Made by a program: the position numbers and the translations under genes
Part shown: piece by piece, positions 2,686 through 10,822 of the stretch
Numbering within the stretch: position 1 is the first letter of the stretch
Layout of the letters: every line of letters starts with the position of its first letter
Origin: a bacterium
Lineage (GTDB): Bacteria > Blakebacterota > Blakebacteria > Blakebacterales > Blakebacteraceae
Reading direction: 5' to 3'
Assembly: GCA_025774205.1 (NCBI GenBank)
Contig: JALGWK010000060.1
Location: 1 to 13,790, forward strand
Length of the DNA: 13,790 nt
Notes under the pieces: generated by a model
Told to the model about the DNA's origin: nothing
What the model saw: only the letters and a program-made list of their open reading frames with translations
Database searches by the model: none

Positions 2686-2711
2686 GGTTCGCCCCCTTTG
2701 TGCCCTGTCAC

Positions 2712-2858
2712 GCAACAACCGTTGCATTCGAGCGGCGCCGTATCTCGACCGACTGCGTTGCGTCTCCTCGCCATAGCCACCGCTATGCCTCGTCGCCGCG
2801 CCTTGCCGGTCAAGCACGGCGGCACTCTCGGTGCAGACGTTTGTCACATGACATGACA
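2712..2858 (-). other. Structured intergenic element (three hairpins)
   Basis: The 173 bases between the peptidase stop and the TPR lipoprotein are dense in inverted repeats. The core is a long stem-loop at 2744-2814. Its outer arms, 2744-2753 and 2805-2814 (ctcgaccgac and gccggtcaag), pair over 10 positions with two G-U pairs in the transcript. The inner arms, catagc at 2772-2777 and gctatg at 2782-2787, pair perfectly around a 4-base loop. Between them, 17- and 18-base purine-rich strands (GCGACGAGG and GCGAGGAGACG on the minus strand) do not pair simply and would form a large internal loop. On one side lies gcaac-aacc-gttgc (2712-2725); on the other, a near-palindrome TGTCACATGACATGACA (2842-2858). 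It could be a dispersed intergenic repeat, an RNA processing or partial termination element, or a small RNA. There is no U-tract for a classical terminator. Confidence 0.5.
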
Positions 2859-5800
2859 CTATCGGAGGAGGAGCATCTTGCGGGTGATCACCGTCCGGCC
2901 CACTTCCAGCCGGTAGAGATAGATGCCGGTCGCGACCTGCCGACCTGAAACATCATCTCCCTCCCAGACGACGGTATGCGTTCCAGCGCCGGCCACCCCA
3001 TCCACCAGCGTCTGCACGACCTGGCCTCTCACATTGAGCACCGTGAGCCTGACACGTTCACCAACCGATGAGCCGGGTATCCGGTAACTGATGACCGTCC
3101 GCGGATTGAAGGGATTCGGCGCGTTGCCGAGCAGTTCCACACCCGAGTCGGTGCCACCGGTCGGCGCTCGTCCCCGGGCCAACCGATACCAGCCGCCGCC
3201 GGCGATCGAACCGCTGGCGGCGCCCCGTTCGATCACCACCTGGCCCGGTACGTCCTCCCAGGCGGAGCCGCTCCATCGTTCGAAATGGAACTCCTCACCT
3301 TCGCGGGCGAATCCGTGCACCGGGAGGGACAACCGGGAACCGCCCTGAGGTCCCTGCCAGTCCGCGGGCCCCAGGGAGACGACCGGCGCGCCCAGTACCG
3401 ACTCCGCGAGGTCAGGTGCCCCCGGCAATCCGACCGGGATCGAATCGTACGGGATCAGCATCAGGGTGGATCCCCGGTGCGTCCCCGGTGGGACATCGAC
3501 GATCACCGTCCCTGACCGTCCCCGTGAGATGAGCATCGCGGGTGCCCCGGCCCCGAGCTGCGCCACGGTCACGGTTGCCTCGTCGGTATCACTCAGGCCA
3601 CCGTACCGGTCGAACCCTGTGACCGAGAGGTCGACCTGACCCGACTGGAGGATGACCGGAGTGGGATCGACGATCGCGACTCTGCTGAGGGTCGCTTCGA
3701 AAAGCAGATCGGTCGCGCTTCCGCCGACAGGTGTCCAGGTCCCGCTGCTCAAGCCGTGATGCAGCGGTTCGTCTCCCGTCAGGTATACCTCGACCTGCAA
3801 GGGGAAGAGTGGATGCTGGATCAGGCCGACCCCGACTGTTGGAGTTGTGTCATCCAGGTAGGTGAACTCGGCCCGGATCATCCAGTCCCCGAGCAGGGGC
3901 TGCTGAGGATCACCGGTTCCGTAATTACTCAGAGGATTCCACGAACCGCCGGATGATTCACGGATGAAGGAACGGTCCAGTTTCTGATTCAAGTCGGCAT
4001 AACCGAACTCGTGATCGGAGGCGAGCACAGAGATCAGATAATCCTGGCCGACAGTGGTATAGGAACCGAGGTCTGGTACGGGCATCCAGGTCCAGCCCTC
4101 CTTCTGGAACCGGGGCGAGACGGTAGCATCGTAGATCGGTATTTCGTCTACGAGCCAGGTACCCGGGCTACCGCTGTTCTCGACCATGGTCCGGATGATG
4201 ATATAGGCATCCGAATCACCCCGGGTGTAAAGCCATACCCCGGTAATCTTTGCCGGCGTTACCTCGGGTGTTATGCGGGTTCCCACATGCCAGAATTCCG
4301 TCAACCCGAACAGACCGTTCACCAGGCCTGTCTCGTGCCTCACCAGGCCCTCCATACCCTGTGTTCCGTCTGCCTCGACCCGGAACTGATCGATCGTGCT
4401 TCCGGTCCCGTTGGTGAGGATGACGGCGGCTTCCGACCAGGTCGAACCCATACCCGTCACCGTTCCACCGGCGCCGGTGAGAGAAGAGACGTCCCATGTG
4501 CTGCCTGGATTCTTCCGCGCCACCGATGCCGTCACCCCGGTCGGCAGTCCATCGGGGAAGGAAAGGTCGAGATCGGAGACGTTCCAGTACCGCACCACTG
4601 CCGCTCCCCGTGGTTCCAGCATTACCCGGGCGGTAGAGGGGTAGAGGTTCTCATGGACCTGCGGTTCGATCCAGGCGGTCGCCGGCGCCATATCATAGGT
4701 GGCATCGCCGAGGTTGCCGCCTTCCAGGTAGAGGGCGGTGATGAAATCGTTGTAGACCGTCCCGAAATCAGGCAGTCCCTGGTCGGACAGCGAAGACTCG
4801 ATCCCCGCGATGCCGGACTTGGATTCGGTTGAGAGGGCCCGGATGTAGGTGTCGCCGAAACGGGTGCCGAGGTAGAAGGCCCACAGGGCTACCCGGGCGT
4901 AGTCAGCGGACAGCGAGCCGTATTGTCGCCACGAGAGGAGATCCACATTCGGGCGGGCCACATACCAGGCACTGCTCCTCAGACCGAAGCCGGTGATGTA
5001 GTAGGCATACTCAGACAGACCTTCGTTGATCGCGAGGATCTCGCTCGGATCGTTGTTGTACTGGATAAGGTGCTGGAACTCGTGGGCGATCGTGCCCTTC
5101 ACCAGATTCCTCCAGTACGTGGTTGTCGCCTGGTCATCCGGGTTCTCGAAACCGACCATCCGCGAGTTCACGTACAGTATCTCGGTATGGTTCGAGCGCT
5201 GTTTTACACCTCCCCCGAAATCGACCGGATCCGCGAATTGATTGGCGGAATAGAAATAACCTGAATAGAACGAGGTTCCCGCGGCAGCTGTCGCTTGTGT
5301 GGGGATGTTCGTCAGGAGGATGATGATCTTTTCATCATTGTCCACGTCCGGGACATCCCCGAAGACCTCCGTCACATGCTCGTAGATCCCCTTTGCAGGA
5401 TCGCGGGGACTGTTCGCCGCGGCGATCTCGAAGGCGGAGATGAATTCATCAAGGGCGGCTGAACCGACGACGACAAGCTCCTCCGATTCGACAAAGTAGT
5501 AGGCGTAGTCCCCCACCGCGCGGCATTCTGCCTCGACCTTGTATTGCTCGTAGGGGAAACCGAGACTCCTGGAGAAATCGACCGCCCAGAAATCCACAAC
5601 ATCGCCCACCTCATAGTCGACGCTGGCGGTGGTCGACTGCTCGCCCGCCGCGATACCGCCTTCGGCTATCAGTCGCGCGAGCCGGCGATGACCCTCCTCG
5701 AGGAGCGGAGTGGCAGAGATGAAGGCAGGTCTGGAGGAGAGCTGTGTTCCCTGCTCCCCGATCCGGGCCACTCCTTCGCTGATCCTCGTGATGTTCTGCT

Positions 5801-5888
5801 GGGCCGATACCCTGTCTGCGGTCATGAAGGGTACGAGCAGGACTGCCAGCAGAACGATCGCTCTGGTGTTGTTATGTATTGGTCTCAC
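2859..5888 (-). CDS. Secreted HExxH zinc metallopeptidase with C-terminal FlgD-type Ig-like domain
   Basis: This is a large exported protein of 1009 residues. A signal peptide covers about residues 1-29 (RAIVLLAVLLVPFMTADRVSA, predicted cleavage after VSA). The catalytic region has DVDNDEKIIILLTNI (181-195), then GTIAHEFQHLIQYNND. HEFQH at 269-273 is the zinc-binding HExxH, and a glutamate in NEGLSEYA (289 or 293) is the expected third ligand. This arrangement recalls hyicolysin-type (M30) and related gluzincins; I would not fix the family without a profile search. The middle (about 400-900) is beta-rich and looks like Ig-like modules. The last 88 residues (NAPNPFNPRTVISYRIPG to GIYLYRLEVG...KMLLLR) form the FlgD-type C-terminal domain common on secreted FCB proteins, often for sorting or anchoring. 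The start is GTG at 5888-5886, directly after the upstream TAA at 5891-5889, with GGAG 6 bases before it inside the upstream gene, so translational coupling is likely. Confidence 0.88.
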   Translation of the reverse strand: MRPIHNNTRAIVLLAVLLVPFMTADRVSAQQNITRISEGVARIGEQGTQLSSRPAFISATPLLEEGHRRLARLIAEGGIAAGEQSTTASVDYEVGDVVDFWAVDFSRSLGFPYEQYKVEAECRAVGDYAYYFVESEELVVVGSAALDEFISAFEIAAANSPRDPAKGIYEHVTEVFGDVPDVDNDEKIIILLTNIPTQATAAAGTSFYSGYFYSANQFADPVDFGGGVKQRSNHTEILYVNSRMVGFENPDDQATTTYWRNLVKGTIAHEFQHLIQYNNDPSEILAINEGLSEYAYYITGFGLRSSAWYVARPNVDLLSWRQYGSLSADYARVALWAFYLGTRFGDTYIRALSTESKSGIAGIESSLSDQGLPDFGTVYNDFITALYLEGGNLGDATYDMAPATAWIEPQVHENLYPSTARVMLEPRGAAVVRYWNVSDLDLSFPDGLPTGVTASVARKNPGSTWDVSSLTGAGGTVTGMGSTWSEAAVILTNGTGSTIDQFRVEADGTQGMEGLVRHETGLVNGLFGLTEFWHVGTRITPEVTPAKITGVWLYTRGDSDAYIIIRTMVENSGSPGTWLVDEIPIYDATVSPRFQKEGWTWMPVPDLGSYTTVGQDYLISVLASDHEFGYADLNQKLDRSFIRESSGGSWNPLSNYGTGDPQQPLLGDWMIRAEFTYLDDTTPTVGVGLIQHPLFPLQVEVYLTGDEPLHHGLSSGTWTPVGGSATDLLFEATLSRVAIVDPTPVILQSGQVDLSVTGFDRYGGLSDTDEATVTVAQLGAGAPAMLISRGRSGTVIVDVPPGTHRGSTLMLIPYDSIPVGLPGAPDLAESVLGAPVVSLGPADWQGPQGGSRLSLPVHGFAREGEEFHFERWSGSAWEDVPGQVVIERGAASGSIAGGGWYRLARGRAPTGGTDSGVELLGNAPNPFNPRTVISYRIPGSSVGERVRLTVLNVRGQVVQTLVDGVAGAGTHTVVWEGDDVSGRQVATGIYLYRLEVGRTVITRKMLLLR

Positions 5889-8228
5889 TTAGAACTCCGG
5901 GCCAAGTGCAATGTGCCAGCGGGGGGTGCCCCCGACCGTACGTAAGGTATTCTTCCAGGCCACGTCCATCCTCAGAATAAACAGGCCGAGATTCATTCGC
6001 GCTCCGAGTCCCACGCCGCTCTTGATGCCGCCGAAGGCGATGCCTTTGCCACTGGTGTCGAAAGGATCGAAGTCGGCTCCGTTCCAGGCCATTCCCATGT
6101 CCCAGAACAGGGCTCCCTGGATTTCACGGATCATAACCCGCAACGGCCAGCCCAGGGCCAGGATCTTCACCATCGGGAAGCGGAACTCGAAGTTCGTCAG
6201 CCAGAAGCGGTCTCCGGAGAACTCATAGAAGTCGAAGCCGCGCAAGGGAGCCTGGAAGCTCGCGAAGTACATGTTCTCTATCTGATACAGGTCGGCGGAG
6301 GAATAACGTGGCCCCCACCAGAATCCGTTACCGCCCAGGAAAAACTGCTGTGGCTGACGGCCGAAACTGGCGCCGCCGGCCAATCGCACGACAACATTCT
6401 GCTCCCGCCCCACCCGGAGATAGGAGCGATAGTCGGCATCGAGCGTAGTGAACTCCAGGGAGTGATCCAGCCAGGGCGGACTGTGTGAAAGGCTGACCCT
6501 GAACCGTCGACCGTTGATATATCCGGTGTACCCCGGAATCGTGTTGTCACCGACCAGACTGGCCCGGGGCATGAACACCTGACGGTGTGAGCGGGTGGCG
6601 GGGCCGGTCAGGTAGATCTTCCGGTAGATCCCGATGAACGTCGTCTCGAGATCGAACCTCAGGAACCGGCTGAAGGGATACGTCAGGAGAGCCACTGCTC
6701 CGGCGGTTCGATCCCCATAGATCGCGCGGGTGTTCCGTTCCGGGAGGTAGAAGTAGTTGTACCAGAATAGCGACACCCCGTAGTTCCACCTGCGCTTCAG
6801 GTTCCGGTAGGTGAACTGGTAATTGGAGTTGTCGAGGGTTGACCATAGGCTGACCATCATCGAGAGATGATGGTTGCCGAGAATGTCACTCATCTCCAGG
6901 TAGGAGGAGCCGGCCAGCCCCCAGAAACTGGAGTATCCGGCATTTGCCACGACGACGTCCGGCACGAGCTTCAGACGATAGGGACGGCTCGTGCTGGCCA
7001 GAACCCCCGAGCCGAGATCACGATCCAGCTCCACCTCATCCCGACCCGCACCACCGGGTCCTTCCCGATCGCCGAAGCCGCGGTCCACCGGGCGGAATCT
7101 CAGGCGGGAGTAATCACGCGCCAACAGGCTGAGCGATTCCCCGGATGGCCTGGCGCTCCGGGCCTCGCGATCCAGCCGCTCCTGTTCCATCGCTGTCATC
7201 AGTCTGGTCGGCGCCGGTGTTGCGTCGATCCTGCTGTACCGGGGATCCCTCATCAGGAAGACATCGAAACCGGCCCCATTGAGGGCACTGAAGACAACTT
7301 CGTTGGCCCCGGTTGAGAAGTGGGCTGTCTCGATCCCGTTCAGAGTGTTCGTGAGCGGCGTGATCTCGCCGTTCGTGAGATCAATTTCATAGAGGTTCCG
7401 GATACCTGACCGGTAGGAGAGGAAGAGCATGGTTTCATCATCGGGTCCCCAGTTCGGCGCGGTATCGGCAAAGGGGCCTGTCACGACAGGCCATGCCTCT
7501 CCACTCCCCGAATCGAGATCGAGGACCCAGATATTCTCCGGTCCGTATTCCACGGGGTGTCCCGGCGCGTCTGACTCCTGCCCGGGCAGGACCGCGTCGG
7601 AGACGAAAGCGAGCATCGTCCCGTCCGCGGACCAGGCCGGTGAACTCTCATACGCTTTCGATCGGGTCAGCCTGGTGAGCGATGAGTCATCAAGATCGTA
7701 GAGATAGAGATCCGCATACCCGCTGGTGATGCCAACGAAGGCTATCCTCCGGCCGTCCCCGTTCCAGGCCGGTGAGAACACCCCATCCATCTCCGGGTCG
7801 ATCGCCCGGGTGATCCGGCCGTTGTCGGCATCGACGAGGTAGATCCTGTCACGGATGCCCCCCTTGGCTGCCAGCGCCAGTTGACGACCATCGGGACTCC
7901 AGGCCACCCCACCCCGCAGGATATGCATCTGTTCGAACTGGCTGACCTGTTCTCCCTTGCCGAGGCGGGCCAGGACAGATCCATCGAGAGTCGAGAGGAT
8001 GTAGAGATCGAGGTACTCCCGGCGGTTGGAGATAAAGGCTATCCTGTCCCCGTCGGGACTCAGGGCCGGGAAGACATTGTACGTCGATCCATCCTCCTGG
8101 TGATCGGTCAGCGGAGTGGCAAATTCATCGGGATGAGCCCGATCCTCTATCTGCGGCCAGTAGGTCCGTTTCATGTACCGCAGCCACTCCTCAGAGACAT
8201 CCTCCACTCGTCGTCCGAGGGTGGTCAC
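5889..8228 (-). CDS. WD40-like/TolB beta-propeller plus outer-membrane beta-barrel: 3' fragment of a broken gene
   Basis: This is the downstream part of a gene whose front lies at 8279-8971. The frame is open to at least 8381 and reads AYKGGQAFFHYLAETYGRGR before the GTG at 8228, so 8228 is only the first possible start codon, not the real beginning. Residues about 45-340 hold about six TolB/WD40-like blades with the typical pattern FPALSPDGDRIAFISNR, VAWSPDGRQLALAAKG, FSPAWNGDGRRIAFVG, SSPAWSADGTMLAFVSD and APNWGPDDETMLFLSYR. A linker of about 80 residues follows, then a region of about 370 residues of alternating aromatic beta-strands (YQFTYRNLKRRWNYGVSLFW, FLGGNGFWWGPRY, FWLTNFEFRFP) ending in ...GPEF. 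A terminal phenylalanine on the last strand is the usual BAM recognition signal of outer-membrane barrels, as in surface-antigen (BamA-like) domains. Expected location: barrel in the outer membrane, propeller in the periplasm or outside. The stop TAA is followed directly by the GTG of the secreted peptidase. Confidence 0.85.
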   Translation of the reverse strand: MTTLGRRVEDVSEEWLRYMKRTYWPQIEDRAHPDEFATPLTDHQEDGSTYNVFPALSPDGDRIAFISNRREYLDLYILSTLDGSVLARLGKGEQVSQFEQMHILRGGVAWSPDGRQLALAAKGGIRDRIYLVDADNGRITRAIDPEMDGVFSPAWNGDGRRIAFVGITSGYADLYLYDLDDSSLTRLTRSKAYESSPAWSADGTMLAFVSDAVLPGQESDAPGHPVEYGPENIWVLDLDSGSGEAWPVVTGPFADTAPNWGPDDETMLFLSYRSGIRNLYEIDLTNGEITPLTNTLNGIETAHFSTGANEVVFSALNGAGFDVFLMRDPRYSRIDATPAPTRLMTAMEQERLDREARSARPSGESLSLLARDYSRLRFRPVDRGFGDREGPGGAGRDEVELDRDLGSGVLASTSRPYRLKLVPDVVVANAGYSSFWGLAGSSYLEMSDILGNHHLSMMVSLWSTLDNSNYQFTYRNLKRRWNYGVSLFWYNYFYLPERNTRAIYGDRTAGAVALLTYPFSRFLRFDLETTFIGIYRKIYLTGPATRSHRQVFMPRASLVGDNTIPGYTGYINGRRFRVSLSHSPPWLDHSLEFTTLDADYRSYLRVGREQNVVVRLAGGASFGRQPQQFFLGGNGFWWGPRYSSADLYQIENMYFASFQAPLRGFDFYEFSGDRFWLTNFEFRFPMVKILALGWPLRVMIREIQGALFWDMGMAWNGADFDPFDTSGKGIAFGGIKSGVGLGARMNLGLFILRMDVAWKNTLRTVGGTPRWHIALGPEF

Positions 8229-8278
8229 AAAGGCCTGGTCAAGATTGCCAAGGAGTCTCAGGCTTGCCAGGAGTTCCC

Positions 8279-8971
8279 CTATACGTCCGCGTCCGTACGT
8301 CTCCGCCAGATAGTGGAAGAACGCCTGCCCGCCCTTGTAGGCGAGAAATCCCCCGTAGATTTCGTCCAGGGGCGGAGCGGCAGACTGCCGGTCTGGGCCT
8401 GATTGATAAGGGCCGTTATGCCGGTGCCGTACAGCATGGCCATCGATACGGCGTGAACCAGTTCGTGATGGAGGACGTGACGGAAATCACGGTACGAGCC
8501 CTGGAAGGGAACCACGATCCGGTGTTTCAGGTACTCGGTGAAGCCCCCGACTCCCTCCGGGAGGATGTTCGGGATCACGTTGGTCTGCTGGAAGTCGTTG
8601 TGTGAGTTGTAGAGGATGACCGGGATCCGGTGGCTCAGGTCGAAGCGGAACTCCCGGCGGAGTTCGTCGTAGGCGAGTTCGGAGGAGACTGCCGCGAATT
8701 CGGCGATCTCCTGCCCCTCCTGGTGGTAGTAGATATCGAAGTGTTCAGTCTGGAAGACAGACCACTCGAAGTTGCGATACTGGACCTTGTTCTGCCCGAA
8801 CCAGGCATCCTGGGCCCGGATGGGCAGCACGAGCGTCACAGAGGTCATGAATGCCAGTATGGTGACCGTCGCGGCGGATCGTCCAGCTGACCTGATCTTA
8901 TTGACAGCGGCGCTGTCGCCGGTCGACACTGCAGCTGTTGCGGGAGCCGTTACGACAGAAAGGGCATGCAT
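8279..8971 (-). CDS. Peptidase-MA-like N-terminal part of the broken propeller/barrel protein
   Basis: This is the front part of the gene continued at 5889-8381. From ATG 8971 there is a leader with a hydrophobic segment (ATVTILAFMTSVTLVLPIRA, followed by QDAWFG), which I read as a signal peptide cleaved after IRA. Next come WSVFQTEHFDIYYHQEGQE, IPVILYNSHNDFQQTNVI, GGFTEYLKHRIVVPF and HVLHHELVHAVSMAM. HELVH at residues 169-173 is a zinc-peptidase HExxH motif. In relatives I remember, LPLW(F/M)xEGxAEY follows and supplies the third ligand. Here the frame reads TGSLPL and then leaves the family sequence (RPWTKS...), ending at 8279. The family sequence resumes in another frame as APPLDEIYGGFLAYKGGQ. 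The EG(L/M)AEY segment is absent from all frames, so more than one base is missing. GTG 8929 is an alternative start. Neither start has a clear Shine-Dalgarno. Confidence 0.75.
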   Translation of the reverse strand: MHALSVVTAPATAAVSTGDSAAVNKIRSAGRSAATVTILAFMTSVTLVLPIRAQDAWFGQNKVQYRNFEWSVFQTEHFDIYYHQEGQEIAEFAAVSSELAYDELRREFRFDLSHRIPVILYNSHNDFQQTNVIPNILPEGVGGFTEYLKHRIVVPFQGSYRDFRHVLHHELVHAVSMAMLYGTGITALINQAQTGSLPLRPWTKSTGDFSPTRAGRRSSTIWRRRTDADV

Positions 8972-8973
8972 CG

Positions 8974-9324
8974 ATGCGTCAGAGAGCCGGCTGCATATCA
9001 ATCCTCTGTCTGCTGACCGCGTGCACCGGTAATTCAAAGCTCCCCGCACCCGATCCGACCCTGGTGCAGATTTACTGCGATCTGGCGCTTCTGGCGGGAG
9101 ATGAGGGGCCGGCCGCCTCCGATTCGACACGCAGCGCGGTTTTCGAGAGCTACGGCTATACCCAGGAATCGTATGAAGGCGCCCTGCAGCCATATCAGGA
9201 TGATCCCCGCAGCTGGATCCGGTTCTTCCAGGCTGTTTCAGATTCGATCGAAATCCGCACCAGCTCACGCCCCCATCATCGATCCGATCAATCAGGGGGC
9301 TGGTCGTCGTACCAGACCTCATAG
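8974..9324 (+). CDS. Small lipoprotein, DUF4296-like
   Basis: This is a 116-residue predicted lipoprotein. ATG 8974 follows AAAGGG by about 9 bases. The signal sequence is MRQRAGCISILCLLTAC, with lipobox LTAC and Cys17 lipidated. After a short linker, PDPTLVQIYCDLALLAGDEG and RSAVFESYGYTQESYEGALQ, then YQDDPRSWIRFFQAVSDSIE, match the layout of DUF4296: a D-L-x-L-A helix, a Y/F-G-x-T-xE-x-(F/Y) helix, then a P-x-x-(W/L)-xx-(I/F) helix. That domain is common as single lipoproteins in Bacteroidota and relatives, with no known function. The assignment is from memory of the pattern and moderately sure. The gene starts 2 bases from the possible ATG of the divergent minus-strand gene, and its last 37 bases overlap the 3' end of the convergent GH99-like gene. 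The C-terminal tail (RTSSRPHHRSDQSGG...) falls mostly in that overlap and looks low in structure. Confidence 0.7.
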   Translation: MRQRAGCISILCLLTACTGNSKLPAPDPTLVQIYCDLALLAGDEGPAASDSTRSAVFESYGYTQESYEGALQPYQDDPRSWIRFFQAVSDSIEIRTSSRPHHRSDQSGGWSSYQTS

Positions 9325-10481
9325 ATCGCGCCGAGCATTATCCCCGTGCCCTTGTTCAGCATCGTAGCCTCAACATACCGGTTCAGATATGGGAAGTAGC
9401 GGATCCCACCCGTGTACGTCACCGGCAGAACAGTCCCGGCCACGTCATTGTTGTCCGCCACGATCTCTATCTGGGTGTCACGCTGCCAGTCATTGAAGGA
9501 ATTGAGCAACACGATGGCGGGATCACTGACCCGGGCGTTGGCGATCTGCCAGGCCTGCGCATATGTGCCTCCGACGGGACTTAGTGTGCTCGTCCATTCC
9601 CGGGAGATGATAGGCCGGACGATACCGGAACCGACCCGGTCGTTGTATCCGGGCATGACGCTCGGAATGAGGGGGATCGGTTCGGCAAGTTCGGAAATGA
9701 CTGTTTCGTACTGCTGCCAGAGTTGTGAGAGATCTTCAAGGTAACCGGTTCCGGCCGGATAGCCGTCATGGGCGCCAAGCAGTGCCAGGTCGATACCCGT
9801 GATGGCATCCATGGCACCGATCCTGCTCCTGTCAGGCTGGGCGACGGAGCCCCAGATGATCTCATCCCCGACAAGGTAGATATCCTCGCCTCCGGTCGAA
9901 TCGGCGTAGCTGAACCGCAGCGCGTTCAGAGCTGTCCGGGCATCCCCCATAATCTTGCGGCTCTGGCGGAGGAATACGACCGGTGTACCGTTGATGTGGA
10001 GATAGTTTGAGCGGGAGAAGAAATGGTCTTCGAACCAGAGCAGGTGGCTCAGAAGCGAGTCCCTGGCTGCCAGGCTCAGGCTGAAGGAGTCGACGTCGGG
10101 ATCACCCGCCAGAATCGTGGGTGTCTCGTAGAGGATGCACCACGACATGTCGTCAAAGGAGGATTCCTCCAGTACATGGTCCTTCAGGGTAGCGTGTCCC
10201 CAGCTGCCGGGACCGCGCCAGGGAACGGCGAAGAAGTCGATCCCCGCCTGCTGGGCCCATTCAACGTGGGCCTGGATAATTCCTGAGTTCCTGCTTGAGT
10301 ATTCACCCAGCAGCGGATGCTGCTCAGGTGTGAGGCGTATCCTCAGGTAGCTGCCGGCCCAGTTCCGGTTGTTCCCGTAGCCCCCACCGTTGGTGATGCC
10401 GCCATTGCACGCTGCCGTGAGTGTCAGCAGCGTAATCCCGAAGATGATCGGGGATATCCAGCTCCGTATTGCTCTGTCCAA
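9288..10481 (-). CDS. Lipoprotein with glycoside hydrolase family 99-like domain
   Basis: This is a 397-residue predicted lipoprotein. I chose TTG 10481-10479 as the start: AGGTGGAGG ends 4 bases upstream, and it gives a compact signal sequence (MDRAIRSWISPIIFGITLLT, then LTAAC) with Cys25 as the lipid site. The frame stays open to ATG 10691, but those extra 70 residues would bury the signal. The domain begins around EQHPLLGEYSSR (53-64), followed by HVEWAQQAGIDFFAVPWRGPGS. This 'wait for the stranger at A-G-I-D-F-F' pattern is characteristic of GH99 and GH99-like (WbsX-related) TIM barrels. Near the end NSFNDWQRDTQIE (327-339) occupies the place of the usual WNEWxEGTQIEP. GH99 enzymes act on alpha-mannosides; here the substrate is unknown, and the altered motif may mean another activity. 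The location is probably the periplasm or cell surface. The gene stands alone and converges on the DUF4296-like gene. Confidence 0.78.
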   Translation of the reverse strand: MDRAIRSWISPIIFGITLLTLTAACNGGITNGGGYGNNRNWAGSYLRIRLTPEQHPLLGEYSSRNSGIIQAHVEWAQQAGIDFFAVPWRGPGSWGHATLKDHVLEESSFDDMSWCILYETPTILAGDPDVDSFSLSLAARDSLLSHLLWFEDHFFSRSNYLHINGTPVVFLRQSRKIMGDARTALNALRFSYADSTGGEDIYLVGDEIIWGSVAQPDRSRIGAMDAITGIDLALLGAHDGYPAGTGYLEDLSQLWQQYETVISELAEPIPLIPSVMPGYNDRVGSGIVRPIISREWTSTLSPVGGTYAQAWQIANARVSDPAIVLLNSFNDWQRDTQIEIVADNNDVAGTVLPVTYTGGIRYFPYLNRYVEATMLNKGTGIMLGAIYEVWYDDQPPD

Positions 10482-10696
10482 GAGACCTCCACCTGCTGAG
10501 GCAGAATTAGATGCTGTAAAAGCCGCTCTCCGTTCCAGAAGAACATGGTACGGTGTTTTCCTGTCTGAATCGAGCAAAGAGCGAATCTGCCCCTGTCTGT
10601 GAAGGTAGTACGTATGTGGTCGTTCCCCGTTCACAGACATGCCTGGAAGACGTTTCAGAGGTCCTGGCATCAAGCTCTGAGGCCGGGACATTCGGC

Positions 10697-10746: not shown

Positions 10747-10822
10747 GGGGCCTTAGCTCAGATGGGAGAGCGCCTGACTGGCAGTCAGGAGGTCAGGGGT
10801 TCGATCCCCCTAGGCTCCACCA
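10747..10822 (+). tRNA. tRNA-Ala (anticodon GGC)
   Basis: This is a full 76-base cloverleaf with an encoded CCA end. The acceptor stem GGGGCCT/AGGCTCC contains G3-U70, the alanine identity pair. The D arm is GCTC/GAGC, and the anticodon stem CCTGA/TCAGG encloses loop CTGGCAG with anticodon GGC (reads GCC and GCU). The T arm is AGGGG-TTCGATC-CCCCT, the discriminator is A at 10819 and CCA is at 10820-10822. It sits alone between the GH99-like gene and the AT-richer stretch. tRNA 3' ends are common integration sites, but I see no second copy of its 3' end in the window and no integrase. Confidence 0.97.

Follow-up and report, generated by a model that had tools for sequence, protein, structure and literature searches.

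MITEs are usually regarded as remnants that local insertion sequences have left behind within a single lineage. RUP of Streptococcus pneumoniae, a 107-bp MITE with IS630-Spn1-like ends, is short and gene-free, carries terminal inverted repeats and a target duplication, and would form a hairpin if transcribed; an IS630-type transposase acting in trans has been proposed to mobilise it (PMC3049150). IS630 prefers the TA within 5'-CTAG-3' as its target (Tenzen and Ohtsubo 1991, cited in PMC2170065), and IS701 produces a 4-bp duplication and has ends like ---YACT (PMC2266710). Dispersed palindromes are also known as REP and BIME sequences and as CGTC-tagged palindromes, some of which are arranged as inverted dimers (PMC3733652).

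The present study describes a 158-bp element within the window, by which we mean the whole 13,790-nucleotide stretch of Blakebacteraceae DNA that was analysed. The element likewise is short, lacks genes, and has terminal inverted repeats and a target duplication. Our preferred reading, which we hold to be probable, is that it is a non-autonomous transposable element (MITE) that inserts at CTAG-like sites, is moved in trans, and bears a structured apical core under selection.

The element in the window and its genomic copies

Alignment of 13 genomic copies fixed the ends of the element (Table 1), which extends further than the interval 2712-2858 proposed by the first-pass annotation, although the structure reported there was present. 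The 71-base stem-loop with 10-base outer arms at 2744-2814 was found as described and is the central core of the element, the perfect 6-base inner hairpin lies where it had been placed (CATAGC 2772-2777 and GCTATG 2782-2787, with a 4-nt loop), and the two further inverted repeats that flank them are real, being the terminal inverted repeats of the one larger element. The termini of the aligned copies read TG...CA and adjoin CTAG-like tetramers, and the pattern of the element ends occurs exactly twice within the window. The window copy is an old one with decayed flanks.

Table 1. Coordinates of the element and its parts, numbered along the window
Feature	Position	Strand	Remarks
Whole 158-bp element	2701-2858	-	Purine-rich strand folds end to end as one hairpin
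Left flanking tetramer TTTG	2697-2700		Decayed CTAG-like target duplication; from sequence and from empty sites at other copies
Right flanking tetramer CTAT	2859-2862		CTAG-like target duplication; from sequence
Left terminal inverted repeat, TGCCCTGTCACGCAACAACC...	2701-2743	+	
Right terminal inverted repeat, TGTCATGTCATGTGACAAACG... on the minus strand	2816-2858	-	
Conserved structured core, 80 positions	2741-2820	-	Match to covariance model R1, 67.4 bits
P1 outer arm CTCGACCGAC	2744-2753		Partner 2805-2814; helix varies freely and covaries
P1 partner arm GCCGGTCAAG	2805-2814		Partner 2744-2753
P2 helix, GCGNN/NNCGC on the minus strand	2760-2764 with 2795-2799		NN positions covary between lineages
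Purine-rich internal loop, GAGGA strand	2765-2769	-	Faces GACGA
Purine-rich internal loop, GACGA strand	2790-2794	-	Faces GAGGA
P3 inner hairpin, CATAGC-CACC-GCTATG on the plus strand	2772-2787		Stem variable and covarying

Folding depended on the strand. The minus strand of the whole element reached -87.5 kcal/mol (z -6.4, with none of 200 shuffled sequences folding equally well) and that of the core a z of -3.3, while the plus strand of the 147-base interval 2712-2858 was barely beyond chance (z -1.69). The two P1 arms, of 10 nt each, form eight Watson-Crick and two G.U pairs on the minus strand. The G/A-rich internal strands that had been noted between the arms also lie on this strand, and both flanking genes have it as their sense strand. 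GAGGA and GACGA could form a GA-C-GA/GA-G-GA arrangement of tandem G.A pairs around one Watson-Crick pair.

The neighbours had been called envelope-protein genes, and "envelope or secreted" is a fair description of them: one encodes a large protein with an FlgD-like C-terminal domain, the other a TPR lipoprotein. The downstream lipoprotein most likely starts 33 bp from the element at 2667, where an ATG is preceded by AGGA; its automatically assigned start at 2859 is an artefact that arises because the element contains no stop codon. The right target tetramer provides the TAG stop (2859-2861) of the upstream gene (2859-5888). Copies of the element are numerous, disturb the calling of start codons, and are found at the breaks between contigs. 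Elsewhere, the window holds a tRNA gene (10747-10819, plus strand; Rfam RF00005, 65.5 bits) and, on the minus strand, a glycosyl hydrolase family 99-like protein (9288-10691; PF16317), a urocanase (162-1982) in which the final ~60 residues seem to be read in the wrong frame, perhaps because of a frameshift into the following gene, and, within 5889-9322, a HELVH-motif protein (8279-9322) and a PD40/Omp85 protein (5889-8228) that resemble the two halves of a single gene interrupted around 8228-8400 by a frameshift, either true or a sequencing error.

The element is multi-copy, dispersed, and intergenic. In its own 3.09-Mb draft genome (G000), 42 places matched the 147-base query, so the feature is not single-copy; 13 of these matches were near full length and, the query itself excluded, were 83-93% identical to it. 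The end sequence alone occurred 115 times, compared with once for a reversed control. Among 60 genomes searched, the sequence type of the window element was shared only by genomes of the same genus or family (G001-G003). In the sister genome G001, searching with the flanks recovered orthologous empty sites with a CTAG-like duplication at four loci, indicating clean insertion at CTAG-like sites: adjoining gyrB, GTGG-CAAG-[element]-CATG-GCG corresponds to GTAG-CAAG-GCG in G001, and at a second site GAGA-CAAG-[element]-CTAA-CGCC corresponds to GAGA-CTAC-CGAC. At a fifth locus a 62-bp derivative in G001 (L131) stands in the opposite orientation to a full element in G000 (L006), either because the two arose as separate insertions at a hot spot or through inversion plus deletion. 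Short derivatives that have both ends and lack the core recur in many copies, with 22, 36, or 62 bp between the duplications. Deletion between direct repeats of 6-7 nt reproduces the 22-bp class within one mismatch; as the other classes fit this model only with repeats of 4-5 nt and more mismatches, replication slippage is offered as a suggestion only.

Copies occur at divergent and tandem sites alike, and their purine-rich strand is sense to genes in eight cases and antisense in seven. This lack of a strand or context preference counts against any general effect on how neighbouring genes are expressed, and the proposal that the element could set the expression ratio of its two neighbours is not supported: no gene context and neither orientation is avoided, the insertions are young when judged by the sister genome, and nothing links the window copy to regulation.

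Spread, fixed geometry, and covariation of the core

The pattern built for both flanks of the inner hairpin met the same architecture in an unrelated genome; some of its contig matches were a coding gene fitting by chance and were removed. Among the matches listed from GTDB species genomes were Aquisalimonas, Comamonas, Rhizobacter, Solimonas, and Woeseiaceae, together with several Planctomycetota, Gemmatimonadetes, Acidobacteriota, and Desulfuromonadales. The earlier characterisation of the feature as one of the structured repeats dispersed between the genes of environmental bacteria is apt, but its restriction to proteobacterial genomes was too narrow, the core being present in Planctomycetota, Acidobacteriota, Gemmatimonadetes, and others as well. 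By covariance model, the core was detected in 34 of 386 sampled bacterial genomes from about 30 families, often in at least 10 copies; these counts are lower bounds, since no more than 12 candidates per genome were scored. No convincing copy was found in plasmids or phages, and the 10 pattern matches in IMG/VR were at best weak by covariance model; one Comamonas megaplasmid carries Comamonas element ends. At four loci (L323, L324, L326, L312) a single element contains the core as an inverted dimer, an arrangement that recalls BIMEs. The cores at L176 and L204 have long outer arms of about 13-16 nt that are nearly perfect complements.

Geometry was fixed, and the sequence of the ends varied. 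Element length was 154-161 bp in 27 of 28 lineages, and the core was centred within 2 bp in all nine CTAG-bounded lineages measured of this length class. Where boundaries could be read, most copies lay between CTAG-like tetramers. The ends, which include TGTCCTGTCCCG, TGTCGTGAGTCA, TGCCCTGAACCT, and TGGTGTGATTCA in other lineages, share a loose TGtCC...AAAT-like motif, and the terminal repeats otherwise differ between lineages that share the core; in G003 conservation of the central 55 nt is 90-96%, inside elements whose ends are unrelated. The 100%-complete genome G355 has about 25 recent copies, and all 14 of the near-identical ones examined read CTAG-[158 bp]-CTAG. Recent copies always have CTAG, and a 4-bp duplication of CTAG and a 2-bp duplication of the TA within it both fit. 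In Comamonas composti (L298, L294-L297, L299, L300), with about 190 elements and 387 end sequences, the core occurs in a type of about 270 bp with TNA-like duplications, and several types of ~60 bp lack it; this use of another target indicates that the core is not tied to a single transposase. The density of elements in this species is very high for an isolate genome.

The helices of the core have been turned over by compensatory change. In an alignment of 44 divergent cores (A1), 19 of 25 pairs showed two-sided changes, and covariation was 0.554; shuffles gave 0.162 +/- 0.013, and slid partners gave 0.11-0.19. The letters of the search pattern are invariant by construction; P1, the NN positions of P2, the exchange of C-G for G-C in the purine loop, and P3 all lie outside it. 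In a second set, collected with the covariance model, the value was 0.650 with 24 of 25 pairs, to be read in light of the set having been fitted to that model. The Watson-Crick pair inside the purine loop swaps between C-G and G-C among lineages in both sets (column pairs 29/59 in A1 and 30/117 in the second). These compensatory changes, like the many genomic copies, are the opposite of what the first-pass annotation said would refute its reading. The structure itself is under selection, as core and length are common to elements of many phyla whose ends differ and whose helices have been replaced by compensatory change. What selection keeps is the core and the hairpin geometry rather than the terminal sequence, both recurring across phyla despite differing terminal repeats.

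Mismatch tolerance was likewise asymmetric. On the purine-rich strand, the arms outside the core contained 89 G.T and 45 A.C oppositions (p 1.8e-4), and P1 contained 51 and 10, respectively, with related sequences counted. An element that functions only as duplex should lack such an asymmetry since its insertions face both ways, and the G.T excess on one strand suggests that the purine-rich strand probably works as a folded single strand.

Candidate mobilising enzymes and rival explanations

In the mechanism that we propose, the gene-free element would supply the ends and the folded core, and an enzyme encoded elsewhere would excise it and insert it at CTAG-like sites, duplicating them. The whole element is a single imperfect palindrome with the core (P1, P2, P3, and the fixed purine-rich internal loops) at its apex. 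The purine strand would act in its folded state, as single-stranded DNA during transposition or replication or as RNA, and would probably be a recognition structure that helps the element to spread or to be tolerated. CTAG specificity best fits an IS630/Tc1-mariner-like transposase, which we prefer as the putative enzyme for this reason. It is unproven because no autonomous partner was found: no element with matching ends was found in the own draft genome (which is incomplete), in Comamonas composti, in any of the collected loci, or even in the complete G355 genome with its recent copies, which counts against our reading; such a partner may have been lost. Also at odds with it are the ~270-bp Comamonas elements, whose TNA-like duplications an IS630-type enzyme does not explain, the ambiguity of the duplication between 4 bp and 2 bp, and the many-copy short derivatives without the core, by which the core may be dispensable for movement. 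A search of four family genomes for PF01609 and PF13546 transposases returned, all in G001, only one locus of IS1182 type and two others, whose ends are unrelated. Mobilisation by IS701 was rejected, with no PF13546 in G000-G003 and element ends that differ from the ---YACT consensus (PMC2266710).

The strongest rival holds that the core is an expressed structured RNA, either an mRNA-stabilising or processing element or a small RNA, that is spread by transposition and conserved for its function as RNA. The one-strand folding and G.T tolerance, the strong covariation, and the coincidence of the purine strand with the sense strand of both window neighbours would all be expected of it, but the lack of an orientation preference with respect to genes, of an Rfam relative, and of a consistent neighbouring gene leads us to regard it as rather unlikely. 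Rfam returned no match for the window element at the gathering threshold or at E<=5, and none for nine other loci.

Somewhat less probable is a mechanism in which an enzyme that recognises structure, of the HUH/RAYT kind or similar to an integron integrase, moves the element as folded single-stranded DNA. Such an enzyme would explain why end sequences vary freely while geometry is fixed, and the constant length and centred core despite divergent ends, the one-strand folding, the inverted core dimers as in REP/BIME arrays, and the failure to find a sequence-matched autonomous element are all consistent with it. The duplicated CTAG and long terminal inverted repeats, in contrast, are hallmarks of DDE transposons, unlike IS200/IS605; a loose shared end motif is what a sequence-specific transposase would need, and no GTAG tag is present. 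To a related idea we give about the same low credence, namely that the fixed 158-nt hairpin with its universal apical core marks a bacterial superfamily of minimal mobile elements that are recognised by the shape of their folded single strand and not by the sequence of their ends, are spread over many phyla, and are moved by any host enzyme that cuts CTAG.

We consider it improbable that the element is an ordinary MITE of one IS family whose core has no role and is conserved merely through recent horizontal spread. Hairpin-stable MITEs are well known (PMC3049150, PMC10969869) and some genomes hold near-identical recent copies, but in dozens of families the helices have been wholly turned over with the loops kept, and neutral spread would not maintain pairing between wholly different sequences. 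That the feature is an intergenic terminator or REP-like regulatory hairpin of its two co-directional neighbours, as a stable hairpin between them might suggest, is very improbable, being contradicted by the empty sites and running counter to the terminal repeats, the target duplication, the copies in divergent and tandem contexts alike, and the lack of a U-tract, which the first-pass annotation had already observed.

Comparison with described elements

No earlier description was found in the open literature and Rfam searched; one under a local name is possible, as ISfinder and subscription journals were outside the scope of this search. The cross-phylum core can now be searched for by covariance model and tested for transposition, and it offers a way to learn which properties let an element without genes pass from one bacterium to another.

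RUP differs from the window element in being AT-rich, described from pneumococcus, of different sequence, and without a cross-phylum core, and no matching IS was found for the window element. Among the IS630/Tc1-mariner elements (ISY100; PMC2170065), IS630 prefers the same target, TA within CTAG; the window element lacks a transposase gene. The CGTC palindromes resemble the window element in having no known transposase (PMC3733652); REPs, however, are 20-40 bp long without terminal repeats or target duplication (PMC3733652), and membership of the REP/BIME group was rejected for an element of 158 bp with long terminal repeats and a CTAG duplication. Prokaryotic MITEs such as QMITE2 of Coxiella are alike in size, ends, duplication, copy number, and the absence of an ORF; they are described as IS-derived, and a cross-phylum folded core inside differing ends does not appear in the passages searched of the source (PMC10969869). 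An autonomous partner sharing the ends is usual for a MITE but not strictly required. With a length under ~600 bp, no transposase gene, terminal inverted repeats, insertion documented by the four empty sites in G001 and the 14 CTAG pairs in G355, and many dispersed intergenic copies, the element is a MITE, and what is unusual in it is the structured core and fixed length common to many phyla within divergent ends.
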